Source of the DNA: Hydrangea macrophylla
Taxonomy: Eukaryota > Streptophyta > Magnoliopsida > Cornales > Hydrangeaceae
Assembly (NCBI GenBank): GCA_033977485.1
Contig: CM066984.1
Location: 48,782,600 to 48,846,599, forward strand
Reading direction: 5' to 3'
Length of the DNA stretch: 64,000 bases
A program made the position numbers and the translations under genes. The notes beneath the pieces were generated by a model. It made no database searches, was not told the origin of the DNA, and saw nothing but the letters and a program-made list of their open reading frames with translations. Positions 10,605 through 55,329 of this stretch are shown piece after piece; position 1 is the first letter of the stretch, and each line of letters opens with the position of its first letter.

Positions 10605-10816
10605 TGTCCTTCTTTTGTTGATGGCAATTGCTTTGTATTGATTTGTTTTTGGCTGTTTTGGGGTTAATCTCCCTTGATTGGTAGCTTTCTTTGCTACATG
10701 TTCCTTTTCAGAGCCCTGCTTCTATCTGTATATCATGGGGTATGCCCCTTGTACTTTTGTACATCCTTTTTTTGGAATCTATTTACCATTTTCCGAAAAA
10801 AAAAAAAAAAAAAAAA
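10605..10816 (+). other. LINE-B 3' UTR and poly(A) tail
   Basis: It carries GGGGTATGCCCC at 10,737-10,748, TTGTACTTTTGTACA, ACCATTTTCCG and about 20 A's. It is nearly identical to the LINE-C 3' UTR. Confidence 0.85.
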
Positions 10817-12181: not shown

Positions 12182-12395
12182 TTGTTGGAACATTCAGGGC
12201 CTTAATCAGCCCACTAGGCAATCTGAAGTTGCCAAATTTATCTACGAAAATAATATAGACATTTTGGGGATAACTGAAACCAAAGTTAGACATGCAAATG
12301 AAGATTTCATTAAAACTAAATGTTTTAAGCACTGGAATTTTGTTACTAATAGTAGTTCAAATTCTGTTGGTAGAATTTGGGTTAGTTGGAATGCT
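12171..12395 (+). pseudogene. LINE-C ORF2, N-terminal endonuclease part
   Basis: It begins MIFSCWNIQGLN and keeps the endonuclease Glu in TETKVRHAN. It is cut by LINE-F after SVGRIWVSWNA. The last 19 bases (12,377-12,395) are the left target duplication. Confidence 0.88.
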
Positions 12396-13198: not shown

Positions 13199-16100
13199 TT
13201 GGGTTAGTTGGAATGCTGACACTATTAATCTAACTATTCTTAAAATCACTTCTCAACTTATTCATGTTAGTATTGAAAAGGATGATAAATCTCTTTCCTT
13301 TGAAGCCTCTTTCATTTATGGTTTTAACACTGGCCAAGCCAGATTGGACCTATGGTCTGACCTAAGGTCCATTTCACAGTGTAATAAGACCACTAATTAT
13401 ATTGCTTTAGGTGACTTTAATGTCCTTTAAGCCCAGATGAAGTCTCTGATGCTAATTTTGGTTGGAATAATGAGATGAAGGAATTTAAAAAGACTATTAA
13501 TGAGTGTTGTTTAGTGGATCTTAGATATATTGGTGAACAATTTACTTGGAGTAACAGAAGGTATGGGAAGGAAGATTTTACCCAGAGAAAACTTGATAGA
13601 GCTCTAGTCAATCAAACTTGGATGGATAATCTCAGCGATTCTTTTGCTCAATTCCAGGTTCCAGGTACCTCTGACCATTCTCCTATTGTTCATATTGATA
13701 AAAAGCATTATAGGAAAGGGAGGGCGTTTAAATTCTACAACTACTGGACTAAATTGGACACCTATAATGAGATTGTTAAGAATGCCTGGAATTTTAATGT
13801 TGAAGGTACTGCCCAATTCCAACTTTGCCAAAAGCTCAGATTCCTGAAAAAGGATCTTAAACAGTTTAGTAAACTTACTCTTGGCCAAGAAAAGATTAAT
13901 GCTAACAAAGCTAGAGAGGACTTAAAGAGAATCCAAACCCTTTTAATCAAAGATCCTAACAATTCTGTCCTCATTGATATGCATAATAATTCTCTGAAAT
14001 CCTTTCATGAAGCTACTTGGATTGAAGAAGAAGTTCTTAAACAAAAGTCCAGATTGCAATGGTTAGAAGCTGGGGATAAAAATTCTAGATATTTTCATAT
14101 GTCTATTAAAGCTAGAAGGAACATGAAAAGAATTTTTATGCTTGAAAAACCTAATGGGACTTTCACTTCCAACTGTAATGAAGCTAAAGATGAAGCTATT
14201 AGGTATTTTCAAAGCATGCTTAGCACTACTTCTAATCACTTCTATCCTGGTAAAGAAGCTCTTAGGAGTGTTATCCACAAAAAAATTCCTTTAGATCTTA
14301 TGGCTGAGTTGGATAGGATTCCTTCAGATATTGAAATCAAGAATACCTTCTTTAGCATGCATAGTAATAAAGCTCCTGGTCCTGATGGTTTTAACGCCTT
14401 TTTCTTTAAGAACTCTTGGACTATTACTGGTCCTCTTGTTACTGCTGCTATTAGGGAGTTCTTTCAAAATGGAGAGATGCTTAAAGTTGCTAATACTACC
14501 CTTATTGCTTTGATTCCTAAAGTCCCCAACCCTACCCGGATGGGAGATTTTAGGCCTATTTCTTGCTGCAATACTATTTACAAATGCATTTCTAAGATCA
14601 TTGCCAATAGACTGCAGTTGATTCTGCCTAATATGGTTGACCAAGCCCAATCTGCCTTTGTTAAAGGTAGGAGAATTAGTAATAATATCCTCCTTGCTCA
14701 AGACCTTCTTAGGGACTACCATAAACCTTTGGGTAAACCTAGAGTGGCAGCTAAGGTGGATATTATGAAAGCGTATGATAGTGTGAGTTGGGAGTTTCTC
14801 ATTGATATCTTGGATGTTCTTGGTTTTCCCCCAAATTTAAAGAAATGGATCATTACTTGTATTACTACCCCAAAGTACTCAATAAATTTTAATGGTGAAT
14901 CTGTGGTTTTTTTTTAAGGTGCTAAGGGAATCAGACAAGGTGACCCCATCTCTCCTTATCTTTTTGTCCTTGTCATGGATACCCTTAGTCAACTACTCCA
15001 TTATTTTTTTTTTTTTGGAAAACAGGTTAATACTAGACCATTTATTAATACTAGACCATTTACTTATCATAGGAAATGTGATAAGCTTCAGATATCCCAT
15101 CTCTGTTTTGCTGATGACCTTCTTATTTTATTTAATGGAGATGTGGAAACTGCTACAGTGATTAAGGAAGCCCTCATTCAATTTTATCATTTCACTGGAC
15201 TCCAAGCTAATAATGCTAAAAGTTGCCTCTTCTTTTGTAATGTTGAAGAGGAAATGACTGAGAATATTATTTCCACTCTCAATTTTGTGAAAGGTAATTT
15301 ACCTGTCAGGTATCTTGGGGTGCCTCTTATTACTTCTAAGCTCAAAAAACAAGATTGTGAAGAGTTGGTTAGTAAAATTTGTGCTAGGATTAATTCTTGG
15401 AAGTCTAAATTTTTGTCCTATGCTGGAAGAGCTCAATTGATAAATTCTGTTTTGACAGGTATTCAACTTTACTGGTCTGGCATGTTTGTTCTCCCTAAAG
15501 GAGTTCTCAAACAAGTGGCTCAAATTATGGCTAGATTCTTATGGGCTGGTAACACTGACATTAAGCATGGTGCAAAAATTGCTTGGGAAACAGTTTGTAG
15601 ACCTAAGAAAGAAGGAGGCTTGGGGTTCAAGGATATAAATTTAACTAACACTATTTTGAACCTCAAACATATTGGAAGTATTCTCGATCCTTCTAATACA
15701 TCTCTATGGAAAAATTGGATCCACCTATATATGCTTAAAAACAAAAGTTTCTGGCAGATTAAAACTCCCTCCCAATGCTCTTGGTATTGGCGAAAATTAT
15801 TGAAACTTAGACATATTGCTAAACCATTGCTTATTCATAGAATTGGGAATGGTGGTAACACTTCTCTTTGGTTTGATAATTGGCTCCCTATTGGGCCTCT
15901 GTTGGATAATTATACTGTCAGAATTGTCTATGATGCTGCCATTAACATTAATGCTAAAGTTAGTACCATTATTAGGGGTTTGGATTGGGATTGGCCTAGC
16001 TCTCACTCCATCGAACTGGATGAAGTCAGAACTATGTTCACCACCCTCTATAAACCCTCCCTTCGTCAGGACAAAGTTAGTTGGCAGGTTACTCCATCTG

Positions 16101-16651
16101 GTAAATTTAATTTTCCCCTTATTTGGGATCATTTAAGGAACCATCACCCCATGGTTCCTTGGTATGACAGTGTGTGGTTTAAAGGAGGTACTCCTAGGTC
16201 GAGTATAATCCTTTGGTTAGCAGCTCATAATAGATTGTCTACCCATGATAGGATCTCTTCTTTTACCCGTGGCCCCCTTGCTTGTGTTTTTTGCCACTCT
16301 CACTTGGAAACACATGATCACATATTTTTTTCTTGCTCTTACTCTGTAGGTATTTGGCAGGATATTATGCAAAGATGTGGTCTGACTTGGAATGGTCAAG
16401 GATGGAATGGCACTTTGCTTTGGATGGCTCAACACCTCAAAGGAAAGACGATTCTTCATCAAATCCCCAAACTTTGCTTGGGAGTTACTGTTTATGGGTT
16501 ATGGAAAGAGCGGAACAACAGATCCTTCAAACACATTTTTTGTCCTAAAGAGATTACCCTCAAGAGCTTAATTTCTCAAATCCATGCTCTCATAAGGATT
16601 AACTGGAAGCACCATAGTAATCTTAATACCATTCTTTGTAATTGGCTTTAA
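13199..16651 (+). pseudogene. LINE-C ORF2, main part (endonuclease end, RT, zf-RVT), frameshifted
   Basis: After LINE-F the frame resumes at WVSWNADTINLTI. A one-base deletion near 13,425 (just after GDFN) shifts it, and a long frame then runs 13,475-14,917. That frame covers SDHSPIV, NKAPGPDGFN, MGDFRPISCCNTIYKCISKI and AKVDIMKAYDSVSWEF. A T-run near 14,910 creates the next break. The last frame runs 14,975-16,651 and includes CFADDLLILF, VRYLGVPLITSKLKK, the zf-RVT pattern CVFC...ETHDHIFFSC and CLGVTVYGLWKERNNRSF, to a natural stop. The decay is mostly homopolymer slippage rather than substitutions. Confidence 0.9.
15003..15063 (+). repeat. Poly(T) plus GGAAAACAGG insertion and 18-bp tandem duplication in LINE-C ORF2
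   Basis: LINE-B at the same place (near 7,195) has only a short T-run before ATTAATACGAGACC. LINE-C instead has about 12 T's, GGAAAACAGG, then TTAATACTAGACCATTTA twice in tandem. The T-run followed by GGAAAA resembles the reverse complement of a LINE tail. The reading frame stays open across it. Confidence 0.6.
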
Positions 16652-16858
16652 TGCCTTTCTTTTGATGATGGCCTGTGTGTTGTATTGATTTGTTTTTGGC
16701 TGTTTTGGGTTAAACTCCCTTGATTGGTAGCTTCCTTTGCTACATTTTCCCTTTTTTTGTGCCCTGCTCCTTTTTGTATATACTGGGGGGTATGCCCCTT
16801 GTTCTATTGTACATCCTTTTTTGGAATATATTTACCATTTTTCTGAAGAAAAAAAAAA
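16652..16858 (+). other. LINE-C 3' UTR and poly(A) tail
   Basis: It contains GGGGTATGCCCC (16,787-16,798), TTGTACATCC, ACCATTTTTCTGAAG and an A-tail ending at 16,858. Confidence 0.85.
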
Positions 16859-16959: not shown

Positions 16960-18695
16960 GTGAGTGAAAATTCGAGTGAAGAAAAAAGAGAGGCCGAGAA
17001 AATTGAGAGAGAAAAAAATCGAGAAGATTCGGCTAGAGAGATAAAAATAGAGAGAAAAACAAATTTCTATGCAAAAGCGAGTGAAATCAAAAGAGCAATG
17101 TTTCTAAATCAGCCAATGATTGTACTATTGTACCAGGAGGCAGTTTTGAACACTAACGAGATTGAGCCCATTTTGCCTAGTTCCGTTATTTCTCTTTTGC
17201 AGGAATTTGGTGACGTCATGCCCGAAGAGATTCCACACGGTTTGCCACCTACTCGAGGGATAGAACACCAAATTGACTTCGTACCTGGTGCTTCCATTCC
17301 AAACCGACCTGCCTATCGTGCTAATCCTGAGGAGACAAAGGGGTTGCAAAGGCAAGTGAGTGAATTGATGGAAAAGGGGTACGTGAGAGAAAGCATGAGC
17401 CCGTGTGTCATTCCGGTGATTTTAGTTCCTAAGAAGGATGGGACGTGGAGGATGTGCATTGATTGTCGAGCCATCAACAACATCACGGTAAAGTATCGAC
17501 ACCCTATTCCTCGCTTAGATGATATGTTAGATGAACTGCATGGTGCTTGTGTATTTTCTAAGATTGATCTAAAAAGTGGTTATCATCAAATAAGACTGAA
17601 AGAAGGAGATGAATGGAAAACTGCTTTTAAAACAAAACATGGTTTATATGAGTGGTTAGTGATGCCATTTGAATTAACTAATGCACCAAGTACATTTATG
17701 CGATTAATGAACCATGTCTTGCGTACTTTTATAGGCAGATTTGTTGTTGTCTATTTTGATGATATACTCATTTATAGCAAAAACTTTGATGACCATGTTC
17801 TACACTTGAAATCAGTTTTGGAAGTTTTGAGAAAGGAAAAGTTATTTGCTAACTTTAAGAAGTGCACTTTTTGCACAGATAAGCTAGTGTTTCTTGGATT
17901 TGTTGTTAGTGCCCAAGGAGTACAGGTTGATGAGGAAAAGGTTCGTGCGATTCGCGAGTGGCCAACGCCCACGAGTGTAGGCCAAGTTCGAAGTTTTCAT
18001 GGGCTTGCTAGTTTTTACCGGAGGTTCGTGAAAGACTTTAGTAGCATAGCTGCCCCGCTTACCGAAGTCATCAAGAAGAACGTTGGATTCAAATGGGAGC
18101 AAGAACAAGATAAGGCGTTTCAATTACTTAAAGAAAAATTAACTCATGCTCCGTTACTTGTTCTACCAGATTTTACTAAAACATTTGAAATTGAATGTGA
18201 TGCTTCAGGTATTGGCATAGGCGCAGTTATCATGCAAGGAGGACAACCAATTGCATTCTTTAATGAGAAATTGAGTGGGGCTACCTTAAACTACCCTACC
18301 TATGACAAGGAAATGTATGCGTTAGTCCGAGCATTGGAGACGTGGCAACACTATCTTTGGCCTAAGGAGTTTGTGATTCACACAGATCATGAATCATTGA
18401 AACATTTGAAGGGCCAACACAAGTTGAATAGGAGGCATGCGCGATGGGTGGAATTCATTGAGACATTTCCATATGTCATCTGTTACAAGCAAGGTAAGGA
18501 AAACATCATTGCAGATGCTCTCTCTCGCAGGTATGCATTGATTTCTACTCTTGATGCAAAATTGCTTGGTTTTGAACACATTAAAGAATTATATCCATTA
18601 GACCAAGATTTTCGTAAAGAGTATAGGAATTGTGAGAAAAAAGCATTAGGTAAATTCTTTAGGCATGAAGATTTCTTATTTCGGGAGAATAAGTT
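16960..18695 (+). pseudogene. GYP1 pol, 5' part: reverse transcriptase and RNase H
   Basis: The RT has the usual gypsy blocks: [54 protein letters not shown], the catalytic YFDDILIYS (about 17,752-17,778), then [11 protein letters not shown]. RNase H follows ([39 protein letters not shown]). The frame is open up to the LINE-G insertion at 18,696. Just upstream (16,859-16,959) the frame is shifted at an A-run. It was probably part of one gag-pol polyprotein. Confidence 0.9.
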
Positions 18696-18990
18696 TTTTT
18701 TTTCGGAAAATGGTAAATATATTCCAAAAAAGGGATGTACAAACTGTACAAGGGGCATACCCCAGGATAACTCAATAAGCTCAAGACAATAGGACAAGAA
18801 GCTAAACTAGCTACCTGACCTCAAAAATCAAAGACCTGCCTTACATGAAACAGAAACAACATTTAAAGGCAAACAAAATGCAACAAGAAGGCAAACCAAC
18901 CATTCAAGGCAAACCAAAAGAAAAAGAAAAAACAGCACAAAAGCCAAAAAGGACCCCACGGGCCGTTAGGACCAATTACAAATAATCCTA
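18696..18990 (-). mobile_element. LINE-G: 295-bp LINE 3' end inserted in GYP1 pol
   Basis: It is flanked by the 16-bp target duplication TTCGGGAGAATAAGTT (18,680-18,695 and 18,991-19,006). On the minus strand it holds only the last few ORF2 codons (RIICNWS, stop) and the 3' UTR with GGGGTATGCCCCTTGTAC and a short tail. It interrupts GYP1 just before the integrase zinc domain. Confidence 0.93.
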
Positions 18991-20351: not shown

Positions 20352-21010
20352 TCCAGCAATTCAAGATTGAAGTAAAATTTTAGTTTTGAATTTGATTGTC
20401 ATTTTTTTTCTTAATTGCTTAAATTGCTGAATTGTAGGCTTGCATGCCAAATATGGAACTTTCCTTATTCCTTTAGTTTCGTTTTATTTTAATTTTTGGC
20501 GAATTTATTTTGAGGCATAATATTTCGTAGGCTTATAGGGCCCAACTATAAGCCTCAGCTATTTAAACAGTTTTAGGGTTTGTAATATACAGTTTTGATC
20601 GTTAATAATATTGTGAGAGTTTTCTCTTTGGTTCTTTGAAGAACTATTCGAACTTATCAGATTTACTCTGTGGCGTTCATACCTGGACTTATCAATCGAG
20701 TTTTCCATCCTTGATTGTGGCGTCTACATCCTTTATACCAAGGTTCGCATCTGTTATAGGTGTTGGGTCGCGGTTTCCATTCGAATATGACAGTAGAACG
20801 GTCCGAGGCATTAATCGTGTTACGGGTTTCGTCATATTGTTGGCGTGGTTTGTATCATACACCAATCTCAAACAATTAAATGCAAATTTTAAAATCATGG
20901 TGCCATGGGAGATAGCGACTAAGCTTGCTACAAAAGGGTTAGTCGTACACACTTCCACGCATATATAACAATTGGAACCGCTAATTGATTCACACACTAC
21001 ATAAACTCTT
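20352..21010 (+). repeat. GYP1 3' UTR and probable 3' LTR or flank
   Basis: This AT-rich noncoding stretch follows pol. It includes a TATA-like CTATTTAAAC at about 20,560 and TTTAGGGTTTG. An LTR is expected here, but no second copy is in the window, so its ends cannot be fixed. The short open frames in it are not supported. Confidence 0.5.
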
Positions 21011-21598
21011 TATGCCATAGTCATATGGAATCTCACAACCATTTATTTTTTCAATGTTCTTATGCCTCTTTTGTTTGGCAGAATTTGATGAATAGGTGTG
21101 GGCTTATATGGAACAGAACCGATTGGGATACCACTGTTAGATGGATGACACAACAATGGAAGGGGAAGAAAATCCATCAAGCTATACCAAAAATATGTCT
21201 TGGGGTCACTGTCTATGGCTTGTGGAGGGAAAGGAACAATAGAACGTTCAGTGGCACATATACGCCCAAAGATCAACTACTGCAAAACTTTATTTCCCAA
21301 ATTAATCTCCAGATTAGGTCCAAGTGGAAACATCATCCCCAGCTTGATTTCTTTGCTTCACCCTGGACATAGCTTCTCTGTTTTGGAATTGTTTTCCATT
21401 TGTCACTATTGTTGTTTGATGTGCTTTTATGCTTCTGGGTTTTGGTTGATGCCATCTTGTTGATTGTATTCTATTTTGTTAGTGGCCTCTCCTGCCACTA
21501 GTCCTTTTACTGAGCTTACTGTTTATCCTGGGGTATGCCCCTTGTACTTTTGTACATTTTTTTGGAATATATTTACCCTTTTCCGGAAAAAGAAAAAA
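21011..21598 (+). mobile_element. LINE-I: 5'-truncated LINE 3' end
   Basis: It holds the last 120 codons of ORF2 (zf-RVT: CHSHMESHNHLFFQC; CLGVTVYGLWRERNNRTF; ending LDFFASPWT, stop 21,372). A 3' UTR follows with GGGGTATGCCCC (21,530-21,541), TTGTACTTTTGTACA and an A-rich tail. It groups with LINE-E and LINE-J. No clear target duplication was found. Confidence 0.85.
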
Positions 21599-23731: not shown

Positions 23732-23995
23732 ATCTCAGAGCCAATGTAATGTCCATATAGAGATGGCATAGTCCCAACATGATCATAGGGAACTCACAAT
23801 TAGGTTCAATTAAATGCAACTTAATCCCAACACAAAATGAATCCTAATTACAAGTATCAACCTACATGGATGAATGCATATTTACATGAACATAAACATG
23901 AACAAGAGTAAACTATGAACTATTCATTGATTTGGACCATTTAGCCTCTGGATTTAAGTTTAATTAATTATTATTAAAATATGGTTTAAGCTTCT
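23732..23995 (-). repeat. Fragment of LARD-family LTR, minus strand, left of LINE-E
   Basis: The reverse complement of about 23,830-23,990 matches the LARD 5' LTR near 49,540-49,700 (ACCATGTTTTAATAATGATT, TTCTTGTTCATGAACAT, CATCCATGT, TTGTAATTAGGA). Bases 23,983-23,995 (TGGTTTAAGCTTC) are the left target duplication of LINE-E. The other half of the fragment is at 33,783-34,472. Confidence 0.65.
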
Positions 23996-24229
23996 TTTTT
24001 TTTTTTCAGAAAATGGTAAATATATTCCAAAAAAAAGGATGTACAAATGTACAAGGGGCATACCCCAGGATAAGCATGAAGCACGAGCATGAGGACTGTG
24101 GCAAAGAAGCCACTCAAAATAAAAGGCAAGAACCAACACCAAGGTCCTTACAATGCAAAATCAATTCCTAATCCAGAGAAGAGGAGAAACAAAACCACAA
24201 CAAGAAGGAAAAACAAATAAAATAAAAAA

Positions 24230-26518
24230 CCTACTTAATTCCAAACACTAGCATGTATATCAAGTAGGGGTGATGTTTCCATTGAAGTCTAAATTGAATG
24301 TTGATTTGAGACACCAAGAGCTACAATAACTGTTCTTTAGGAGTGGATTTTCCTTTGAAGGTCCTAGAGTTCCTCTCCTTCCAAAGACCATAGACAGCAA
24401 CCCCAAGACAAATTTTGGGGATAGCTTTTTGAATGTTCTTCCCCTTCCAATGTTGTGTTATCCACTGGATAGTTGTATCCCAGTCTGTCCTATTCCATCT
24501 AAGCTCACACCTTTGCATCAAATCCTGCCAAATAAAAGAAGCATAAGTGCACTCAAAGAATAAATGGTTATGTGTTTCCATATGGCTATGGCAAAACACA
24601 CAAGCAAGAGGCCCATGGGTATAAGCATAGATTCTATCATGGGTAGCGAGTCTATTTTGGACAGCAATCCAAAGAAAAAATTGTTGTCTAGGAGTACAAC
24701 CTGAAAACCATACAATGTTGTCCCAAGGGACCACAGGGGCACCATCTCTAAAATGGGCCCAAATGTGTGCAAAAGAAAAACTCCCAGAAGGAGAGACGGT
24801 CCAAGAAATACTATCTGACAATCCAGTAGGCTTATACATAGTATTTAAGATGTTTCTAACTTCATTCAAGCCTATGGAGTTAGACAAGGGCCACCTCCAA
24901 TCATTGTTACTTATGATGGCCTCAACTTTAGCGTTAGAGTCAATTGCAGCATCGTAAGCAATCCTACTAGTATATTTTCAAACAAAGGACCAATGGGAAG
25001 CCAGTTATCAAACCAAAGGGAAGTATGTTTACCATCACCAATCTTATGGGATAGGATAGGTCTAACCATTTCCCTAAGTTTTAATACTTTCTTCCAATAC
25101 CAGGAACAATGGCTTGGGGCTTTAACTTCCCAAAAACTTTTAGTTTTAATCATGTACATGTGTACCCACTCTTTCCATAATGACTTATTTTTAGGATCAA
25201 GAAGGTTACCAATATGCTTTAAGTTCAGTAGGGTATTTGTGAGATATATATCTTTAAACCCCAGTCCCCCTTCTTTTTTTGGTTTGCAAACCTTAGCCCA
25301 AGCAATTTTGGCCCCATGGCCCTTCTCTGTGGAGCCAGACCAAAGGAATCTCATTAAAGCTTGATCCACCTGTTTAAGAACCCCTTTAGGGAGAATGAAC
25401 ATCCCTGACCAATATTGTTGGATCCCTATCAAGACAGATTGTACAAGCTGAGCCCTACCTGCATAAGATAAAAATTTAGATTTCCAGGAGGTGATTCTAG
25501 AACAAATATTGTTAATTAACTCAGCACAATGGCATTTTTTCAATTTAGTTGTAATCAAAGGAACTCCAAGGTACCTCATAGGTAAAGAACCTTTAGTAAA
25601 TTGGAGTACTCTCAGAATATCATTAGCCACTTGGCCTTCAATCCCATAAAAGAAGACAACTTTTAGCATTGTTTGCTTGAAGATCAGAGAATTCATAAAT
25701 TTGATTTAAGGTTTTTCGAACCACCTTTGCAGAATTAATATCACCATTAAGTAAGATAATTAAATCGTCAGCAAAGCACATTTAATTTATCACATTTCCA
25801 ATGATATTTAAACTGGTCATTTTGAATATTGTTGTGGAAAAGTTGGCTAAGAACCTCCATGACGAGAACAAAGAGATAAGGAGAGATTGGATCGCCTTGC
25901 CTAAGTCCTCTTGCACCATCGAAGTAGCCCACATATTCCCCATTAAAGTTAATGGAGTATCTAGGGGTAGTAACACAAGCAGTAATCCATTTTCTAAGCT
26001 AAGGAGGAAATCCCAAAATCTCAAGAATATCAAACAAGAATTTCTAATTAACACTATCATATGCTTTCATGAGGTCAACCTTAGCCGCAACTCTAGGTTT
26101 CCCACCACTTTTGTGATAGTCTCTAAGAAGATCTTGAGCAAGCAAGACATTATCACTAATTTTCCTACCCTTAACAAAAGCAGATTGTGCTTGATCAATA
26201 ATAGAAGGAAAACAAGATTGGAGCCTATTCGCAATTATTTTTGAGATACATTTGTAAATGGTATTACAACAAGAAATAGGTCTAAAGTCCCCCATTTTAG
26301 AAGGGTTGGGCACTTTAGGAATCAGAGCAATGATAGTAGCATTAGACTCTCTTAACATTTCCCCTGAATTAAAAAATTCTTGAATAGCTTCTATAACAGT
26401 AGACCCAACAGTCGGCCAAGAGTTTTTAAAGAAAAATGCATTAAAACCATCTGGGCCAGGGGCCTTGTTATTATGCAAGCTAAAAAAAGTGTGTTTAATC
26501 TCATCAGAAGTGGGGATC
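24230..26518 (-). pseudogene. LINE-E ORF2, 3' part (RT and zf-RVT)
   Basis: Read from right to left it has HNNKAPGPDGFNAFFFKNSW, SKMGDFRPISCCNTIYKCIS, AKVDLMKAYDSVN, then a damaged stretch around the CFADD motif (near 25,770). GVPLITTKLKK, SYAGRAQLVQSVLIG and WKKVLKLREMVRP follow, then zf-RVT with CVFCHSHMETHNHLFFEC and CLGVAVYGLWKERNSRTF. Several frame changes and a stop near 24,321 show decay. The solo LTR separates it from the 5' part between EDLDRI and NKAPGPDG. Confidence 0.88.
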
Positions 26519-26779
26519 TATAGACACCCCAATTTTGACCAACCGTCGAATTTAGGAGAGTGTCGCCTCCGTATCCGATGATAACAAGGATCGGAAGATT
26601 CGAAGTATTCCAAGCTCTTCAGAAAGTTCTCTAAAACGCGGTAAAATTTCACAGAAAAGAGAAAATACTAGGTATTTAAGAGAATTCAGGTATAAAACAC
26701 AATTTTCGGAAAAGATCTTCAAGAATAAATTGCTTTGAGAAAAAGGAAGAGCCAAAAAAGGAAAAGCTCAACAAAAGCG

Positions 26780-27075
26780 GCACACGGCAGATACCGCGGC
26801 ATTCACTGAATGCCGCACGGCAGTCAGTGAATGCCGGCCCGGCATTCACCAAATGCCGCCAACATTTTCTGACTGCCGTTATCTTTTAAAGTCCGTATTT
26901 TGCAGTGCAATACGTATGTGTATGCAGATAAGAACAAAAAACTGATAAAGTAAGACTGACAAAAACGCAGCAATCAATTAATTGCCGCGGCATTTGATGA
27001 GTGTCGCACGGCAGTCACGTAGTGCCGCGGCGGCATTCACAGAATGCCGCGACAGTTTCTTGACTGCCGCCCTGG
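26780..27075 (+). repeat. Cluster of CGGCATTC/GAATGCCG palindromes in LTR U3
   Basis: This is a run of GC-rich inverted repeats. The best, GCGGCATTCACTGAATGCCGC-like, spans 26,796-26,816 and is a perfect palindrome around one central base. Variants follow at 26,815-26,880 and again at 26,985-27,070 (CGGCATTTGATGAGTGTCG, CGGCATTCACAGAATGCCG). The cluster ends about 110 bp before the TATA box. Confidence 0.85.
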
Positions 27076-27180
27076 GCAGCAGTCTGTCTAAATTCAGAAA
27101 GTACACATTGTACCACCAAATGAGAGAATTACACCTGTTTTTTGCTCCGAAATTCACCAAAAATACCTGGTAATTTTGCC

Positions 27181-27188
27181 TATAAAAG
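27181..27188 (+). promoter_or_regulatory. TATA box of the solo LTR
   Basis: TATAAAAG lies about 110 bp downstream of the palindrome cluster. It corresponds in position to TATATAA at 48,044 in the LARD 5' LTR. Confidence 0.65.
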
Positions 27189-29399
27189 AGAAGGGATCTT
27201 CCTTGAAAGAGGGAGAATACAACAAGAGCTACCCACTACATACAACATCCATCACTCCACCAACATTTTTTGAGAGAAAAAAAGAGTTGAGAGAACTAGA
27301 AGAGCTTGGAAGATCTTCAAAGAAAAGAAAACTTTGAGGATAGTTTGGAGGTGATCCTCTAAACCATAAGTCATTTATTTACATTCTTTCTCTTTTAAAT
27401 CATTAATCCTCAAACTACTTTGTTTTCTTTTGTTTTATTTCTTTTGCTAATCATACTTCTTTCTTGAGACTCTTAGAGATTCTCAATGTCTCTTTTGAAA
27501 TCTCTTGAACATGATCTTTTGAATCCCATGTAGGCTTATGCTTCCCATGGGAGTCAAAGTTGATCACCACTTAATAGATGGATCCAAGTCCATACTCATG
27601 ATTTGGGTCCTCTAAACTTGATGTCTTGGGGAATCCTTTCTATATTCCTTTGAGACCCATGAGTAGTAGTCATGTCTCCATCTCCAATGACCATCAAATG
27701 GTAGGAGAATGTAGTTTTGAGTCTAAGCCCATCTCCATGGTTTAGATTCCTTATCTTGTAGATTCCATGAAGTCCATCCATACTTCACTTGAAATCTATG
27801 AAAAATAAAAGTTTTAGTCTCCAATGGCCATCAAATGGTAGGAGAAGTGGTTTGGTTTAACCCAACTTCATGGTTTAATAGTTGGGGTTACCAAATAAAA
27901 GTTGAACTTGACAAATGAAAACAGTGAGTTCACAAACTGTTTTTGATCAAAGATTTTTAGTTCGAAATCTAACCGTTGAAATCAAGTGAAACCAACGGGA
28001 AAGTGTCAATAACACAATGTTCTACCACTGAAATTTTTGTTTTTTGATTGTTTCGTGTTTAGAATGATTTGGTCATGAGTTTTGTGAAGTAACAATAATC
28101 TGTCCAGAATTTCAGAATAGTTTCAGAACAGCAAACTGGTTTTAAAATTGATAGATCAGAGCTCTAACCAAGTTTTCATGACCTCTAATAATTTTTTATA
28201 AGATCCTTAATGTGTCATGAAGGTTCCCTAAAAAGAATGAAGCAATTCGGATTTGTTTGCTATTTTTAAAAAATCATACAAGATCTCTGGACAGAGAGTT
28301 GTAAAACGCTGAGTGATGCCTAGTGTTTTCCACATTCCCGGAGATCTAACCGTTCAAACCTTGATTTTCTTTCTGGGTTAGAAACTAGACTAACAGAGGC
28401 ATAACATATCCAAAACGCGTTAAGATCCAACCGTTGGAAGTATTTTATTTCATTTTTTTAAGATCTGGTCTGCTCTCTATAATTCATAAAAAACTGCTAC
28501 TGTTTTTGTCTAATCTTATTTATTTCAACTCAAATGGTTCACTAATGTCTTGAGATTCAAATCATGTTTTGAATAATGATAATTTAGCTTAAATCCGGAG
28601 GTTAAGTGATCCAAATTAGTGAATAAATCCATGTTTCATTCTTGTTCACATTCACTCATCCATGTTCATCTAATGCCCATGATTAGAAATAGGTATTGAA
28701 TAAATTTGGATTTCATGCTTGTTAGATCTAAGCTAGGGAATAGGATTGATTATTTGACATCATATTATTATGTGAAGCATGTGGACTAATCTTTGTTTTG
28801 CAGCGCATTTGGGGTACAATTTCTCATCTCCCTTCTAGTTTATTTCATTCCTTGATTTTATTGATTTTTTAACCTCATGCGCGACACCTTAGAATTAGGA
28901 GCTTGCCTTATATGTATATATGATTAGAGACTTTTTTCTTAGGATTTTCTTTTGTTTGTATGCATCGCACGTTTAAATATCGCTGCTGGATCCCGGGTAA
29001 GTTCTCTTGTTCCTTATTGCATATCATATTGCTTGTTACTTGAAATATGTGATTTATGAATGATATTTTGGCCATTAGCAATTTTACACCCTTTGGACAT
29101 GTTTTTGTGATGTATACGTATATATGTATTAGTTGAGGGCATGCTTAGATTAATAAATTTGATTAAAAGGATGTTGAGTAGAGGCCTATCGCAAGATAGG
29201 ATGAGAGAGGGTGTTTTAGTCCGACGGGCTCCTTCCTCTCTCATTCCATAATCCCCGGACCTAGTTAATCTCTGGTTTCTAAAAGATCAGTTTGCTTTTA
29301 ATGGTTTCTTAATTCTCCTTTTAAAAAATTAAGTGGCGACTCATTTGTTTTTTAATTTGATTTTGAAAAGCTGTGGGTAAGAAAAATGCGATATCCACA

Positions 29400-30726
29400 G
29401 GATCCTATCAAGATCCTCCAAGAAATTCTCTGGTATTCTTTTATAGATAACCCTCCTCAGAGCTTCTATCCCAGGGTAATTGGTATTAGCAGAAGTACCC
29501 AGCAAATCTTTAAAATGCCATAAAGCCTCCAATTTTGCATCCTCAATGTTGCGAGTAAAGGAACCATCAGGTTTTTCTAGTTTAAAAATCCTTTTCCTAT
29601 TTCGCCTATTTTTGATATGTTGGAAAAAGTATTTAGAATTTTTGTCTCCTGTTTTTAACCATTGAACTCTCGATTTCTGTTTTAAGGTTTCTTCCTCAAT
29701 CCAAATTGCTTTCAGGAAATTAGATAAACATTGTTTCTGCTTGGAAACAAGAGAGGGGGAACACGGCCTATTGAGGAGGTCAGACTGAGCCTTTTTAAGG
29801 TCAATCCTAGCTTTATCAGCTAACAATTTTTCTTTTTAAACAAAAATTTTGCTAAATAGCTTTAACTCATGTTTAACCATTCTAAGTTTGTGGCAAACTT
29901 GATACTGATTTGTACCATTAACAGTAGTATTCCAAGCATTAGAAATAGTAGGATTGTAAAGATCAAGTTGTGTCCAATAGTTAAAGAATTTAAAAGCTTT
30001 ACCCTTCCTCCTAGAACATTTGTCAAGATAGAGGACAAGAGGGGAATGGTCAGATATACCTGGTTCATGGAAATGAGCATATGATTCAGAAAAATTGTCC
30101 AGCCAAGTTTGGTTTACCAGAGCCCTGTCCAATTTCCTTTGAGTATAGTCTGGTCTACCATATCTACAATTACTCTAGGTGTAAAATTCTCCCAGAAATG
30201 TCAAGTCAGTTAAGCAAAGAGAATTAACCACATTTCTAAAGTCGGAAATATCAGAGTTTAAACCAAATTCTGGATCAGAGACTTCAGTGGTGTTTAAGAC
30301 CACATTGAAGTCTCCAAGGATAACATGATTTATATTGAAATTAAATTGGGACTTTAATTCAGACCATAAGTTTTTCCTTTCCTGTCCTGTGTTAAATCCA
30401 TAAATGAAAGAAGCCTCGAATTGAACACTAAAATCATCATTTGCAATGTCAACATGAATTATTTGGGGAGAGACCCTAAGAACAGTGAGATTAATCTTAT
30501 CAGGATTCCACCCCACCCAAATTCTCCCAACAGAATTTGGGGTGCAGTTGGAGACATAGTCCCAGTCCTTAAAAATTTTCCGTTTTATATTTTCCTCATT
30601 AGGATACCTGACTTTAGTTTCAATAAGGCCAAGAACATCAATATTATTATCATATATGAATTTAGCAACCTCAAATTGTTTAAGGGGCTGGTTGAGGCCC
30701 CTAATATTCCAGGAGCACACAATCAT
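29400..30726 (-). pseudogene. LINE-E ORF2, 5' part (endonuclease and linker)
   Basis: The endonuclease starts MIVCSWNIRGLNQPLKQFEV at 30,726. It keeps the Glu in LIETKV, GDFN (VILGDFNVVLN) and SDHSPLV. Stops and a frame change occur near 30,175 and 29,836. The linker (EEETLKQKSRVQWLKTGDKN, RRNRKRIFKLEKPDG) runs up to the solo LTR. The ORF2 start overlaps the ORF1 end (stop at 30,701) by 26 nt. Confidence 0.88.
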
Positions 30727-32284
30727 TAAGAACGTTTATGAGATTGTTTCCTCTTACCTGAAGAACCCCTTTGCTTGTCCTTCTTTGAATGGTGAATATA
30801 TAGAGTGCCAGAAGAGTTAGGAGACTGACCTGAGTAGTTAATGGCAGTAGGAGTGAGAGCTTCCTCTGGTTGGTCATCAGATATGATCCCAAACCATGAC
30901 CTGGGTTATCTGATAATTCAGAGTTTTGGTGATGAGGAGCAGGCAGCAATTGAGCTGAGCTCTTATCTTCAAGGTATGTTTGCCCCTCACCTCTAGTTTG
31001 GGATTCCTGGTATACATTATCATCAGAACAGGATGGCTCGTTCGCACCAAGGACCTGTTCTGAGGCACTAGGGGTCTCAGCAAAAGGAGGATGCTGCTTA
31101 GGAGGAATAGAAACAGTGACCAAGAGAGGAGAATTGAGTACTATAGAGTCCCCACCAACTGGGTTAGAGACAGGAACCTCGGCATTCGGGTGGCAATCGG
31201 AAGTGATCACAGTAGATGCAGTTTCAGTATTTGCATCTAATACAGCAAACATATTATTTTGTGACTCCTTATTCTCTCTAAGAGATTTATCTTCCAAAGA
31301 AGACAGAGATGCCGAAGGACAATTATCCTGAGGTGGAAAGGAAGAAGAGGGAGTATTAGCAACCGAAGGATACATACCTGTTTCTCTACTTTCAGCATTA
31401 GTGTAGAAACCCTTGGATTTAATTTTCCAACCCCCTTCATTGTCCCCTTGAACATAAACCCCGTGGGTACTGGTAGAATGAACATGTGGCTGGGTTTGGG
31501 CCTTAGGTAATTTAGAACAGTCGTGACCAAATTTGGAGCATTTGGTACATCGAATTGGAGTCCATTGATACTCAATCGGGAGCGCAATTTGCTCCAATTC
31601 ACCACTGATAGGATCTTCAAACTCGATAATCAGCTCAAGAAGGATCTCATCCTTAGCATCAAGCTCAATACAAATTCGAGCAAATGATATTCTTCTGCAA
31701 GCAGTCGTAACTCTAGCGACATGGAGGGGCTTACCAATGGCACTTGCAATGTAGCTTAGACCTGTGGGGTTCCAATATTCAAGTGGGATATTGTAAATAT
31801 GGACCCAAACTGGAATTTTGGTTATTGCTTCCTTAGATAAAGTAAGCCCTGCATGCCAATTTTGAAGTATAATTGGTTGACCTGCAAGATGCCATGGCCC
31901 GCCTTCAAGAATGGATAAGCTCTCCTCGGCAGAATCGAATTTAAAGAAATAGAAACCATTATCGGTAGCAACCATGTCATTTAGGCCAGCTTTACCCCAC
32001 AGTCTGGTCCTAGCATTTTTAACAAATGAGAAAGGGAGTTTCTTCCCTATGAAGTAGCCAACAAGGGTATTCTCCCAAGCAAAACTGCCTTCTATGCGGA
32101 CTTCGTTAGGCATGGTTATAAGTTTCCTTTGAGGACCATCTTTTGGTTTGACATAAGATAAACGAAAATCTTTACCAACTGTAGGAGTAATAATAGAGGC
32201 CCAAGTTTTGGCCTGAGGAGAACCAGACCCATCTCCACTCTGAGCTGGGACAGAAGGATGACCCGGACTAACTTTGGGGCCCAC
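30701..32284 (-). pseudogene. LINE-E ORF1, C-terminal part with DUF4283 and zinc knuckle
   Basis: It is open over 527 codons. It has WASIITPTVGKDFRLSYVKP, then DUF4283 (ENTLVGYFIGKKLPFSFV, LEGGPWHLAGQPIIL, PVWVHIYNIPLEYWNPTG), CRRISFARICIEL, the knuckle CTKCSKFGHDC and a long polar tail. The ORF2 ATG (30,726) lies inside its end. It is shifted relative to the upstream ORF1 piece near 32,285-32,292, so the protein is broken. Confidence 0.88.
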
Positions 32285-32291
32285 AGAGGTA

Positions 32292-33622
32292 TCATTTTTT
32301 ATCCTGAGGTATCAATTTCTTGGGGGTAGGACACCTCAGCAACATCAAACCAGAACTTGCGGGCATAGTGGCTGAGCCCAAGTGCGCCAAATAGGTGGGT
32401 TGTAAGGGAGTAGGCATACCTCCCAAAGGATATGTAGCTATTGCGTTAGAAACACACTGATCAGCTGAGCTGTTGGCACTAGTAGTCAAACTCCCACTAG
32501 ACATGTGAGCCGGGTTTGAGGTGATAGCTGAGCCAGCAGTGGGCTCGGCAGCTTTGACAACATTCATTCCAGCTGGCTCATTTGAAAAGGCAAGAGGAAG
32601 TGTTGATTCCACGCGTGGATGGGGGTGGGTAAGCACTGGACCAAAAGCCAACAAGTTTTCGGAATTTGTGGCCAAGTGGCCAGAAACCATGTGCACATTT
32701 AATGAGTGTAGAGGGGTAGGTGTCCCCCCCATTTGACCGTTGGCCTGTGAGGCAGTTTCACGCGCCACAAACTCATTGGGAGTGGTTTTGGCTTCGTTAG
32801 ACGGATCAAAAGATGTGTATACATTATTCTTGGGGTTTGCACTAGGATCAAAAACAGGAACACTTGAAGAACAATCATCCCCATACTGTATTAACCCAGC
32901 ATTTTTGGACAGATTTAATGTAAGGCTCGGGAAATCAGTTCCTTCCAAGGCAAAAGAGAAGCTTTCCTTAACCCCAGTAGGAGTAATGCCTTGAGGAGAG
33001 GGTGTGAGTTGGACAAGATTTAAAGCAGTTGGTTGGGGAGCACCTGGGCAAATGTCAAAAGGCTATATCTGTGTGTCTTTCCAATTTATGCTTCCTCTAT
33101 AATTGCCTTTACCCCCCCCCCCCTACTACCATTAATCTTGAAAGGGGTTCTCCCAGCAAAGGTTCTTCCCCCATGATTGGGAACAGAACAAGGGGGAGTA
33201 ACCTTAGCTACATCCTGAGATTCCCTCCTCTCAGCAAGAAGATGTCTTAGCTGGGTGTTTTCTTCAATCAATCTGGAATTTATTCTAATGGATGCTTCAT
33301 AACCAACCTTGAGTGGGTGATCCAAAAGCAATCCTTCATCATCTTCCTCGGTTTCTGATCTAGGCTTGGTGCCTACTTTCTCATTGAACATCTGAGTATG
33401 AGTAGAAGAGCCCTGTAAGTCATCCTTAGCAACCAAAGATTCATTTTCCTTCATAGTAATACAAGCAGCTTTGAGGGAGGGTGGATCTGAGGTAGCAATG
33501 ACATCAACACTAGTGTTTGGTATGGCTGAGACATTTGAACTTTGACCACTCTTAGTTTCAGTAGCAGGATTTAAAACTCTCATAGCCTTAAATTTATCCA
33601 TCATTGAATCAATTGCAATCAC
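32292..33622 (-). pseudogene. LINE-E ORF1, N-terminal part, frameshifted
   Basis: The likely start is the ATG at 33,622 or shortly after (MIAIDSMMDKFKAMRV). A polar, low-complexity region follows in two frames (33,622-33,086 and 32,948-32,292). The switch lies near a run of about 13 C's at 33,111-33,123, which probably slipped. Plant LINE ORF1 N-termini are poorly conserved, so this is called from position. Confidence 0.75.
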
Positions 33623-33782
33623 ATTTTTAGAGAGAAAGACTAAATCAATTTAGAAGGAGAGATCAATCAGAAGATCACTCAAATTCTAGAGAGAAGATGG
33701 ACATTCTCTCTCTAAAGATGGACGAGTTTCGGTTCCCCTCAAGAACTTTTCTGACCACTCCCCTGTTATTACTTATGTTGAT
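33623..33782 (-). promoter_or_regulatory. LINE-E 5' UTR with hairpin shared with H2
   Basis: These 160 nt precede the first ATG of ORF1. On the minus strand it holds TAGAGAGAGAATGTCC followed by TTCTCTCTAGAATTT (33,686-33,714), an inverted repeat also found in the H2 5' UTR (52,376-52,405). L1-type LINEs carry an internal promoter in the 5' UTR, so this is the expected place for one. Confidence 0.65.
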
Positions 33783-35874: not shown

Positions 35875-37240
35875 TCATTTCCATCTTGCGATGTATTGAT
35901 GAAGGTGAGGATCATTCTTCCACTTGACTTGAATTTGAATGATAAGCTGGAGGAAAATATCTTGGAGGAGCATTTCCTTGGTTTTTGCTTCAAGTTTGAA
36001 AGTTCGAGCATTTCTTTCCTGCCAAATACTATAAATCGCTAAACCTAAGCACATCTAAGGAACAACATGTTTGGGAGTCTTTTGCTTCCAGGTCCTAGAT
36101 GCCCAATCCACCCAGCTGTCCCAAGAAGAGGCAGTTCGGGATATTCCAAGCCGCTGCATGATCCCCTGCCACACAAAAGTGGAGTAAGAGCAGTTGAAAA
36201 ATAAATGATTATGAGATTCCATACCTTTGTGGCATAGCACACATGCCAACGGCCCTAGAGTGAAACTAAATATCCTATCATGGGTTGATAACCTGTGGAG
36301 AAAAGCAAACCATAAAATGATACTATGTCTAGGTATATGACCAGAAAACCAAATAAGGCGATACCAAGGTACATTAGGATTAACTTTCCTCAAATTATCC
36401 CAAGTATGAGCAGAGGAAAATTGTCCATTGGGGGAAGGTAACCAAATAGCCACATCACAAGAACCAGAAGGAGGCGGAAGGGAATGTAAATTGCCTCTTA
36501 TTGTCATAAGATCAATAGTATTCGTAAGTGGCCAATTCCAAGCTTCTCCATTTATAACATCAGAAACTTTAGCATGAAGGTTCAAAGCAGCGTCATAAAC
36601 GACATGATGCCCAAATTTATCCAATAAAGGCCCTAAGGGGTGCCAATTGTCATACCACAGGGAGTTACAACCATTGCCAATTTTATGACACATCATAGGC
36701 CGAACAATATCTCTTAATTTAAGAAGCTTTTTCCAGTACCACGAACATTGGGAAGGAGGTTTAATAGCCCAAAAGCTTTTATACCTTTTAGCATGTAAGT
36801 ATTAATCCAACTAACCCAGAGAGACTTGCTATTGGAAGAGAATAGGGTCCAAATGTGTTTTAAGTTCAAAGCAATATATGTATATATATATATATATATA
36901 TTTTTTAAGTTGGACTAAGTGTTTAATGCCTAATCCCCCTTCCTTTTTAGGTTTACAAACTTGTTCCCACGACACCTTAGCACCATGAGAATGATCAAGT
37001 CCTCCAGTCCAAAAGAACCTACGCATAAGCATCTCAACATGTTTAAGCACACTTTTAGGTAAAATAAACATTCCAGCCCAATAATTTTGTATGCCTGCAA
37101 TAATAGATTGAATAAGTTGAATTCTACCAGCATAAGATAAGAATTTAGAAGTCCAAGAAAGTATTCTTGAACTAATCTTCTTAACTAATTCATCACAATC
37201 TCTTTTTTCTATCTAGAGGTAATAAGAGGAACTCCAAGGT
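35875..37240 (-). pseudogene. LINE-D ORF2, C-terminal third
   Basis: On the minus strand it covers AGRIQLIQ, MFILPKSVLKHVEMLMRRFF, EQVCKPKKEGGLGIKHLVQL, HKIGNGCNSLWYDNWHPLGP, then zf-RVT (LSTHDRIFSFTLGPLACVLC, ESHNHLFFNC) and ERNARTFKLEAK, ending YIARWK at 35,875. A (TA)n microsatellite (about 36,876-36,902) has expanded inside the coding stretch. An in-frame TAG follows near 36,054, and frameshifts occur near 36,790 and 37,200. Confidence 0.87.
36874..36906. repeat. (TA)n microsatellite
   Basis: Roughly 13 TA units lie inside the dead LINE-D ORF2. The encoded run of alternating Ile-Tyr interrupts the QLNKTLNLKH motif seen in LINE-A, so the expansion came after inactivation. Confidence 0.85.
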
Positions 37241-37664: not shown

Positions 37665-38066
37665 ACAGGCAATCCCAAAGATTTGCCTAGGTGTTGCTGT
37701 CTATGGATTATGGAGGGAAAGGAATAAGAGGACGTTCAAAGGCTCTTTCATGCCACAAGAACAACTACTCCAAACTCTGGTCCTTCAAATTAATACTCAA
37801 ATTAGAATCCAATGGAAACAAGATCCACAACTAGAGTTTTTTGCTAGATTCTGGACATAATAGGGTGGTTGCTAGTTTGTCTTTGTTTTTTTTTTTGTGA
37901 TGTTTGACTGAAGCTTTTGGCAATCCTTCTCTAGTTGATTTTGTTGGTGGCTTTATTTGCCACTAGTCCTCCAGCTGTGCTTTATTGTTTATCCTAGGGT
38001 ATGCCCCTTGTACATTTGTACATCCTTTTTTTGGAATATATTTACCCATTTTCGAAGAAAAAAAAA
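37665..38066 (+). mobile_element. LINE-J: 3' LINE fragment in TEK 5' LTR
   Basis: It has the last 63 codons of ORF2 (AIPKICLGVAVYGLWRERNK, RTFKGSF, ending LEFFARFWT, stop about 37,860). The 3' UTR follows (AGGGTATGCCCC at 37,996, TTGTACATTTGTACA, TTTACCCATTTTCG) with an A-tail ending at 38,066. It groups with LINE-E and LINE-I. No clean target duplication was identified. Confidence 0.85.
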
Positions 38067-52344: not shown

Positions 52345-52375
52345 AAGAATTTAAAGATGCAGTATAGGATGTATC

Positions 52376-52405
52376 CTAGAGAGAGAATGTCCTCCTTCTC
52401 TCTAG
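52376..52405 (+). promoter_or_regulatory. H2 5' UTR inverted repeat
   Basis: CTAGAGAGA...TCTCTCTAG forms a 9-bp stem around GAATGTCCTCCT. A closely similar element lies in the LINE-E 5' UTR (33,686-33,714, minus strand). Confidence 0.7.
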
Positions 52406-52427
52406 AAATTTAAGGGTCTCTCTACCT

Positions 52428-55125
52428 ATGGGTAAAAGAGAAAGAATTAAAAGATCTTCTCCATCTCACTCTACCTCCAAACTATCCCTTAAAGAACTCA
52501 AGCAGTTTGTATCTATTACTTCCAAAGATCATGCAGACTCTGTAGTCCTTGATAACCTCTCAGTTTATGAACACGAATCTGATGATGGTGGAGATCTACT
52601 ATCTAGATTTTGTACCACTCAAGATTATTGTGAGATTGCCAAAGCTAGGAGAACTAAAGATATAGATCAAGAAGCTCCCTATGTTGCTGTCCAAGAGGAT
52701 CCTGTGGTTTCTGAGCCTTCTTCAAATGGCACTTCCCCCATTGTTCCTCCCTCTCCTAATTGGTATGATGATATGCAAGCTCGTCTCTTGACATATAAAA
52801 GTAGGTTCACTTCTAAATCAGAGTTAAGCTCGGATCAACTGGGTTTGCCTAATGTTGCTGGTGTTCCATGCCAAGTTGCTGCTCCTCCCATCATTGCTAA
52901 TGATCCTAGTAATTTTGAAAACTTTCTCATGGATGTGGTGCAAGCTGAAAAGAAAGTTTTAAAAAAGAATGGGTTTGATCCAACTTATACTCCTTTTGAT
53001 ACTCCCATTCTGAAATCGTTTGAAACCAGTCTTGGCAGTGTTGGTAGCCGTGTGTTTAGCCCCAAACATGCTTCGAGTGGTGAGAACCTGGGGGTCTCTC
53101 CATACCAGGAGGGTCTTTTGGCTGGCCCATTTAACATCACAAAGGTTCAGAGCTCTGGAGCTAAGCTTGTCAGTCTGGGGCATGTCCATAGATGCGAAGA
53201 AGATGATGGTGTTGTTCTACACGCATTTCCTAGGGCGACTGGGCCTCTCATGCCTAAACATCTCACGTCTAGTATAGCAAGCAGTAGTGGGATAATATCT
53301 CACGCGACTGACACGTCTCAGTCTTTTCACATGGGTGCTTTGTTAGCTGGCCAAGGCGCTGTTTGTTCTGTCAACTCCCCGACTTTCATTGTTGTTTCAC
53401 CCACTGCCAACGTGTCACACATCCCCCAGACTTATGATGACCCTAGGCCCTACGCAAATAAACCTTTTGGTAAGGATGCGTCCCATACGGATGATAGCCC
53501 TAAAGCTGTTGGCAACGGGTCTCAAGGAGTTAAAGCTGTCCAGCCTTTATTAAATCTGTCGGACCTACAGCCTTATGTTGTCCCTCCAGCTGTCCATGTG
53601 TTGTCCCATCTAGCCACGTGTCATGATGGCTCCACCGATGGTTTTGTTACAAAAGATAGCTCCCATGCAGATGTAATAGAGCGTAAAGGTGGGCCTTGTG
53701 AGTGTTCACATGTGCCTACTATTGCCGAGCATGAGTGTGAAGGGGGTCTTGTTCGGCCTAAAGTTCATGGGATTAATTCGAGAGCTGACACGGACAATGG
53801 TTCAAAGAAAAAATTTAGCGAATTATTTGTTTCAAACCGTGGCATTGCTACTCAAGCAGATGGTGAGATCCCTGATACTACGAGTGCTACTTCATTATTT
53901 GATTTTCCGTTGGATTTTGTTCCTCATGGAACGTGATCGGATAATCTGATTCTTCATGTCCCGAAAGTTTTAATTGATGAAGGCAGTAATGAGTGGGGTA
54001 CTACTCTCGTTGGTTATTTCATTGGGAAAGGTCTTCCATATTCTCTTGTTACCTCCGCTACGGAACGGTTATGGGCAGATTATGGCATATTTGATACGCT
54101 AGCTATGGACTCGGGAATTTTCTTCTTCTCCTTCTCTAGTGAGATTCAGAGAGATGCGGTTCTCGAAGGGGGGCCATGGTACATTGCTGGACAACCCCTC
54201 ATTTTACAACCATGGAAACCCAGTCTGAGATTGGACAAGAAGGATATTCAGTCTATTCCTATTTGGGTTAATCTTTATGGCATTCCGTTGGAACTCTGGA
54301 ACCCAAAAGGTATAAGCTTCATAGCTAGCTATATTGGGAAACCATTACGTGTGGATATAGAATGACAGCACGCCGAAGACGTATATCACTTATGCTCGAG
54401 TTTGTGTTGAGGTGAGCAGTGATCTTGACCTTATCGATAAATTTGCTATTGAGATGGTTGATGGCAATGGGAAAACTATGCTTCTTGATATTGCTATTGA
54501 GTACCAATGGATGCCTATCCGCTGTTCTAAATGCTCCACGTTCGGTCACGATTGTAATAAGGTGGCAAGCCAGAAGTCGGGATATGGTATTCATAGAGCG
54601 AATCTAGCCTAGTCCTACCACCCCACTCCTAGTCTTAATCGTCATAATAGGTCAAAGGAGGTTGTTTGGCAAGTTGTAAGGAAGGATAAGGGGAAAAAGA
54701 TTGTTGAAGATGCTGACTTAGAAGGGAGCACGAGATTGTCTCCTCAACAACTTGAAACCAAAGATAGGGTTCGGAGTTTTGGTGTTGATGGATGTGCTAT
54801 TAGCTCTTCTGACCAGGAACATGTGATATTCTCTATTAACAACCTTCCTTCTATCTGTGAGAATAGGACCTCTACTGTTCCAATTGACAACTCCTTTAAT
54901 GGATTAATACCTTACGTGTATGACAGAGAAGACAATGGTCATCTCGATGTTTGCGACGGAAGCTCCGTTAACGAGGGATCCCATGAGGAAGATGATACTA
55001 ATGATAAAACCCCTGAGACAGCAGTTGCAAATGCAATCGACATTCTCATCTCAGGACACCAAAAGAAAAAGGGAGCGAAGATGTTATTCAGCGGTAGTAG
55101 GCCTAAAGGCCGCCACCGATCTTGA
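52428..55125 (+). pseudogene. H2 ORF1 with DUF4283 and zinc knuckle, degenerate
   Basis: It starts MGKRERIKRSSPSHSTSK, followed by about 480 polar residues unique to this copy in the window. TGA at 53,934-53,936 breaks the frame just before the DUF4283 domain. In the same frame follow GTTLVGYFIGKGLPYSLV, LEGGPWYIAGQPLILQPWKP and PIWVNLYGIPLELWNPKG. A 2-bp insertion near 54,358 shifts the frame. The knuckle CSKCSTFGHDC (about 54,525) and a TAG at 54,610 come next. The C-terminus SGHQKKKGAKMLFSGSRPKG (54,736-55,125 frame) matches H1. Total length would be near 900 residues. Confidence 0.88.
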
Positions 55126-55313
55126 TTGACTCAGTGTCAGGTTTAGGGATTGAGTCTTGTGGATTGCTCATCCCATGTTGTTATGTTATGCATGTTTGTT
55201 TCATTTCCATGTTTGATCTCGCATTCATAACATGTTTTTGCGCTTACTGTAATATCCTGGGGTATGGCCCCTTTTTTTGGAATTTATTCACCCTTTTTCC
55301 GAAAAAAAAAAAA
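55126..55313 (+). other. H2 3' UTR and poly(A) tail
   Basis: It is about 180 nt. The last 75 nt are nearly identical to the H1 terminus and include the diagnostic GGGTATGGCCC, where ORF2-bearing LINEs read GGGTATGCCCC. Confidence 0.85.
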
Positions 55314-55329
55314 AAGAATTTAAAGATGC

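Follow-up and report, generated by a model that had tools for sequence, protein, structure and literature searches.

Can a plant LINE that has lost ORF2 persist as a lineage of its own, or are such copies only the debris of complete elements? The question is raised by two elements, H1 and H2, in a 64,000-nt stretch of Hydrangea macrophylla DNA, which we call the window. An earlier note, made from the letters of this DNA, had described them as copies of one ORF1-only family resembling the mammalian HAL1 elements.

The window is densely populated with L1 elements of plant type. ORF2 sequence, some of it interrupted, was found at 244–3855, 5179–10598, 12171–16645, 12693–13190, 21010–21369, 24261–30726, 35881–37212 and 37666–37857. 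Three elements that carry both ORF1 and ORF2 are needed for what follows:

4179–10812, plus strand: L1b, ORF1 and ORF2, host of H1 (limits approximate)
10817–16858, plus strand: L1c, ORF1 and ORF2, uninterrupted at the H1 site, a possible helper type (limits approximate)
23992–33730, minus strand: L1e, ORF1 and ORF2, with an interruption (5' limit estimated)

The 3' part of a minus-strand L1 (12395–13200) is nested in ORF2 of L1c; with H1 in ORF2 of L1b, this makes a repeated L1-type insertion into L1s. An L1 tail without an ORF2 match lies at 18694–18850 on the minus strand and overlaps the end of an apparent Gypsy-type pol frame (16960–18792).

H2 is the more complete of the two ORF1-only elements. 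Its parts are as follows:

52345–52360, plus strand: left copy of the target-site duplication, AAGAATTTAAAGATGC, read directly
52361–55313, plus strand: H2, a full-length ORF1-only LINE, with limits set by the perfect duplication
52377–52410, plus strand: 5' hairpin segment common to H2 and L1e, 31/34 identical
52428–55125, plus strand: H2 ORF1, decayed, grouping with P0011 and P0002/P0003 in the tree
55126–55315, plus strand: 3' UTR with GGGGTATGGCCCC, the terminal L1-type tail, and the A-run
55314–55329, plus strand: right copy of the duplication, read directly

The two 16-bp copies of AAGAATTTAAAGATGC match perfectly, in agreement with the earlier description of H2 as a plus-strand insertion with a target duplication; the first two A of the right copy are common to the A-run. 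The duplication starts TTT/AAGAA, an L1-like target when judged by the consensus given in PMC2848041. ORF1 starts at 52428 and reaches its natural stop at 55123–55125, interrupted by a stop at 53934–53936, a frame break at about 54356–54385 and another stop at 54610–54612. A 176-nt UTR and then 14 A follow the natural stop. The 5' segment is identical at 31 of 34 nt to the stretch upstream of ORF1 in L1e, and a hairpin is predicted in this segment of both elements. H2 and L1e have both a 5' segment and a 3' tail in common.

H1 lies inside ORF2 of L1b and is truncated at its 5' end:

7345–9152, minus strand: H1, a 5'-truncated ORF1-only LINE in ORF2 of L1b (5' boundary uncertain by a few bases)
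7532–9121, minus strand: H1 ORF1, 529 open codons, C-terminus FSGSRPKGRQRS
7345–7531, minus strand: H1 3' UTR and A-tail

The target site before insertion is visible in the uninterrupted relative L1c, and the 5' end of H1 was placed at about 9150–9152 by comparison with it. No target duplication of at least 5 bp was seen at H1 when the site was compared with L1c. The open frame of 529 codons had been reported earlier, and we found it unchanged. Pfam assigned this ORF1 to DUF4283 (residues 192–312, E = 1.2e-32) and matched no other family; the CCHC motif was read from the sequence, and the protein is of the plant DUF4283/CCHC type. A structure prediction for H1 from eight sequences gave a mean pLDDT of 36 and was set aside. 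The stop is followed by a 177-nt UTR and 10 A.

In both elements, then, the ORF1 C-terminus FSGSRPKGR(Q/H)RS leads directly into a 3' UTR of 176–177 nt and an A-tail. Relics of ORF2 were sought in H1 and H2 by tblastn with nine ORF2 pieces; no match was credible, the top one being 17 antisense residues in the H1 UTR (E = 0.013), and this upholds the earlier statement that no endonuclease or reverse transcriptase lies between ORF1 and the UTR. The two elements align at 74.7% over 257 columns (E = 2e-38); the alignment starts inside ORF1, crosses the stop and ends at the A-tail, with gaps of 1–2 nt before the A-run. Because the alignment runs through the stop with gaps this small, the ORF1-to-UTR junction is the same. 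A difference in junction position had been named in the earlier note as a possible refutation; the positions agree within 1–2 nt. A six-frame scan of the window did not find the C-terminal motif beyond H1 and H2. ORF1 of L1b ends in LPLPVINDI and overlaps the start of ORF2. Such an overlap is also present in L1c, and none is left in the H elements.

The coding sequences of H1 and H2 have moved far apart. Their DUF4283–CCHC cores are 61% identical, and over 209 core codons pS is 0.70, pN is 0.26 and dN/dS is 0.155, a rough ratio with dS near saturation. For the 161 codons after the core dN/dS is 0.40, equally rough with dS near saturation, and the last 19 codons show 9 synonymous vs 4 non-synonymous changes. 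These values describe ORF1 downstream of its 5' part, H1 being truncated there. Amino acids have been retained while codons changed, and ORF1 is under constraint. Since synonymous sites are near saturation, we take H1 and H2 to represent two old subfamilies within one lineage rather than a single young family. The earlier proposal of a single HAL1-like family remains the best reading in its ORF1-only part and gives way in its one-family part. The coding divergence also excludes one deletion copied by segmental duplication, a scenario that the earlier note had rejected as well.

The 3' ends connect the H elements both to each other and to the complete L1s. Within the window, TATGGCCC is confined to the tails of H1 and H2, which agrees with the earlier claim of a 3' variant of their own. 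TATGCCCC is present nine times, always in an L1 tail, and in eight of these tails it follows a recognisable ORF2 C-terminus:

4085, 10741, 16791, 21534 and 38000, plus strand: TATGCCCC sites
12461, 18759, 24062 and 35664, minus strand: TATGCCCC sites

All nine continue in some form into a TTGT...TTGT segment, which the H elements do not have. The last 38–50 nt of both H1 and H2 are matched at 84–95% by six of the nine other L1 tails. The tail at 21598 aligns with H2 at 73% over 89 columns and not with H1 at the 1e-5 threshold; for the L1a tail and the one near 35664, neither H1 nor H2 was matched at this threshold. The tail alignment itself took in eight other L1 tails, that is, all but the one near 35664 (minus strand). 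Six matching tails make mobilisation in trans by L1 ORF2p, acting through the common tail, the best explanation of how the H elements may have moved. A second tail hairpin, present in most L1s of the window, is absent from the H elements, so recognition by the window's own L1s is not certain.

Above the common tail, the UTRs of H1 and H2 are identical at 83 of 124 aligned bases (local-score z = 10.3, 60 shuffles), staying alignable against coding synonymous differences of 0.68. We compared all 36 pairs of nine elements (H1, H2 and seven others, leaving out the tail near 35664, minus strand). Only the near-copies L1b and L1c scored higher (z 35.2), and the next score below H1/H2 was z 4.8. This similarity argues that the H UTR comes from one ancestor; it has been either constrained or exchanged later between the H subfamilies. 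A conserved hairpin above the tail, suspected by eye, was dropped when folding did not recover it in H1.

The other L1 tails have features of their own. All nine carry a GGGGTATGCCCC-type hairpin. In seven of them the last 40–60 nt are nearly the same and the UTRs above are mostly unalignable, a pattern consistent with the stringent recognition of the 3' end that has been proposed for one lineage of plant L1s. L1a (4085, plus strand) and the minus-strand L1 near 35881 (tail at 35664, minus strand) end in another tail type, GTGCC...TTGGCT..., and the other seven are unlike it. Two tail classes thus occur among complete L1s within one window.

Protein searches retrieved 61 proteins, the first search scoring only the 7993 candidates with most words in common. 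Named matches come from plants, e.g. Dionaea, Camellia and Lactuca. Eight of the 61 end in the H C-terminus, seven strictly (P0001, P0002, P0003, P0010, P0011, P0013, P0016) and P0033 in the variant FSKSRPKGRHRA; P0004, P0008, P0009, P0019 and P0031 end before the motif region and are uninformative on it. The eight motif proteins, known here as proteins alone, have the source 'ena' and lie on contigs of 1748–3451 nt; they may come from few species. Subtracting the ORF from the contig leaves 313–774 nt in seven of them and 2233 in one, compared with 194–5543 nt for 12 hand-picked ORF1s lacking the motif (contigs of 1.8–7.3 kb). The motif remainders are not clearly smaller (one-sided p = 0.067), and the values of 313–774 nt fit ORF1-only elements without differing significantly from motif-less ORF1s. 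Scanning viral_contigs and genome_contigs with alignment A1 gave 23 and 20 pattern matches, respectively, none of them encoding a relative.

We built a tree from 48 of 66 core sequences, omitting ten with a short core, seven judged long-branched, and P0004, and rooted it at the midpoint. Its ten motif rows are H1, H2 and the eight database proteins. The H1 type is sister to the H2 type (100/100), and P0013, P0016 and P0033 make a third motif subclade (100/100). In the best tree, under the midpoint root, this third subclade falls outside a group (93/69) in which the other motif rows stand with ten motif-less ORF1s. The ten motif rows stand together in 4% of 200 bootstrap trees, and the AU test does not reject a single clade for all ten (p = 0.36). 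The motif may have had a single origin within one clade; alternatively, it was present in the ancestor and the motif-less group lost it. On this tree, H1, H2 and the eight proteins would form three subclades beside the ORF1s of complete L1s. An earlier 33-row tree that rejected a clade of nine motif rows (p = 0.0001) was discarded because it scored the cut-off P0004 and P0019 as motif-less. The first 40 or so residues of P0010 and P0016 are nearly identical and their cores are 49% identical; subclades may have exchanged 5' modules, or the stretch may be translated 5' UTR.

H1 and H2 probably belong to an old LINE lineage, non-autonomous but protein-coding, which kept ORF1, lost ORF2 and would obtain ORF2p in trans. 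The architecture, the common junction and tail, the one target duplication and the ORF1 constraint are direct observations, and the steps that follow are inferred. Full-length H copies would be transcribed from their own 5' end. The ORF1p, made up of DUF4283, CCHC and a basic lineage-specific C-terminus, would be translated and would coat its own RNA, presumably binding it in cis. Endonuclease and reverse transcriptase would be supplied in trans by ORF2-bearing L1s, whose ORF2p may recognise the last 40–50 nt in common and the A-tail of the H RNA and copy it at a TTT/AA nick by target-primed reverse transcription. Such a process leaves marks like those seen at both elements: in H2 a target site, a duplication and an A-tail, in H1 an A-tail and a truncated 5' end. 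Against an ORF1-only lineage stand the number of genomic copies seen (two, both in the 64-kb window), the lack of a visible target duplication at H1, and the three of nine other tails that match H poorly or not at all.

The case for ORF2 having been lost twice, by independent internal deletions or SpIRE-like insertions of spliced RNA at one set of conserved sites, starts from an unseen ORF2-bearing L1 with the same C-terminus and tail. The large coding divergence would then be no more than an ordinary autonomous lineage accumulates, splicing and reinsertion are reported for human L1 RNAs (PMC5860796), and the contig sizes of the motif proteins are compatible with ORF2. However, two separate losses would have had to produce the same junction within 1–2 nt despite near-saturated synonymous divergence. 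They would also have to come from a parent whose TATGGCCC tail variant is seen in none of the nine other L1 tails of the window and whose motif is encoded nowhere else in it. The ORF1 of L1b and L1c overlaps the start of ORF2 and the H elements keep no overlap, and SpIREs are themselves described as generally dead ends (PMC5860796). We regard separate losses as unlikely.

A host origin, in which a gene domesticated from an L1 ORF1 gave rise to H1 and H2 as processed copies that L1 reinserted like any mRNA, seems to us very improbable. A conserved coding sequence and C-terminus suit a gene as well as an element, but an mRNA has no need of the L1-type tail on both H copies or of the 5' segment that H2 has in common with L1e. 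Three deep subclades with poorly conserved N-termini are also more in keeping with a family of elements than with a single orthologous gene. Most L1 copies in the window are broken, and one could imagine that H1 and H2 are unrelated truncated fragments, alike by chance or through a common L1 tail only. This is refuted by the alignment across the stop codon (E = 2e-38 over 257 columns) and by the UTR score above the tail (z = 10.3), and we give it next to no credence. The probable reading is still a non-autonomous lineage with ORF1 alone. Its wider form is tentative, and we put it somewhat short of an even chance: an ancient plant lineage, marked by an FSG(S/N)RPKGRH C-terminus and the TATGGCCC tail, may have branched off at about the depth at which complete L1s split into lineages and lived long as a two-component system with L1-supplied ORF2p.

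Several known elements invite comparison. The ORF1 of mammalian L1 is of a different type from the plant DUF4283 ORF1, HeT-A is a telomere element of another clade that forms telomeric arrays without target duplication, and SINEs are non-coding. HAL1 is described as a non-autonomous L1 derivative with ORF1p as its sole product and several origins among mammals (PMC5753468). Like HAL1, the H elements have ORF1 without endonuclease or reverse transcriptase and end in an L1-type tail and A-run (with a target duplication in H2 only). One junction is common to the two copies in the window. The H elements differ from HAL1 in having an ORF1 of the plant DUF4283 type and not the mammalian L1 type, in their own ORF1 C-terminus and 3' UTR, and in looking like one old lineage, whereas the HAL1s are described as having several origins. 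HeT-A of Drosophila is described as a non-LTR element that encodes no reverse transcriptase and likely obtains the enzyme from TART or TAHRE (PMC5537684). H likewise has no reverse transcriptase of its own, but H2 has a 16-bp duplication at an L1-like target and H1 sits inside an L1. H would work like HAL1 or HeT-A and is a member of neither; the label HAL1-like is apt for the class of mechanism and not for membership, the ORF1 being of the plant DUF4283/CCHC type.

Sadhu of Arabidopsis is described as a non-autonomous, non-coding poly(A) retroposon whose movement is attributed to LINEs (PMC2848041), whereas H codes for an ORF1p under selection, with a 529-codon ORF in H1. SpIREs, human L1s shortened by a splice that lies inside the 5' UTR or joins it to ORF1 (PMC5860796), are likewise internally shortened copies, but the H junction persists across near-saturated coding divergence, which fits poorly with a dead end. 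ZmSINE2/3 and TS SINE are reported to have their 3' end in common with L1 and are inferred to recruit its enzyme; the maize L1/SINE pair, from a lineage in which the last 45 nt are conserved, sets a precedent in plants for recognition of the tail (PMC3747384). The H elements likewise have an L1-type 3' end, but carry ORF1. Overlapping ORF1 and ORF2, with a DUF4283 ORF1, are described for the poplar L1 Celine (PMC11288735), and the overlap is also present in L1b and L1c. Among the listed open-literature titles and abstracts, we found no plant equivalent of an ORF1-only LINE. Within that scope it is likely, but not established, that such a lineage is new in plants.

If the lineage is real, losing ORF2 while keeping ORF1 would be a stable strategy and not a mammalian or fly oddity. 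It would have arisen again in plants and lasted until the synonymous sites of its subclades were near saturation. Because ORF1 is under selection in a lineage without ORF2, encoding ORF1p would then pay, and the action of a plant ORF1p in cis on its own RNA would become testable. The tail that H and L1 have in common is a natural pair for testing specific 3'-end recognition by plant L1 enzymes.
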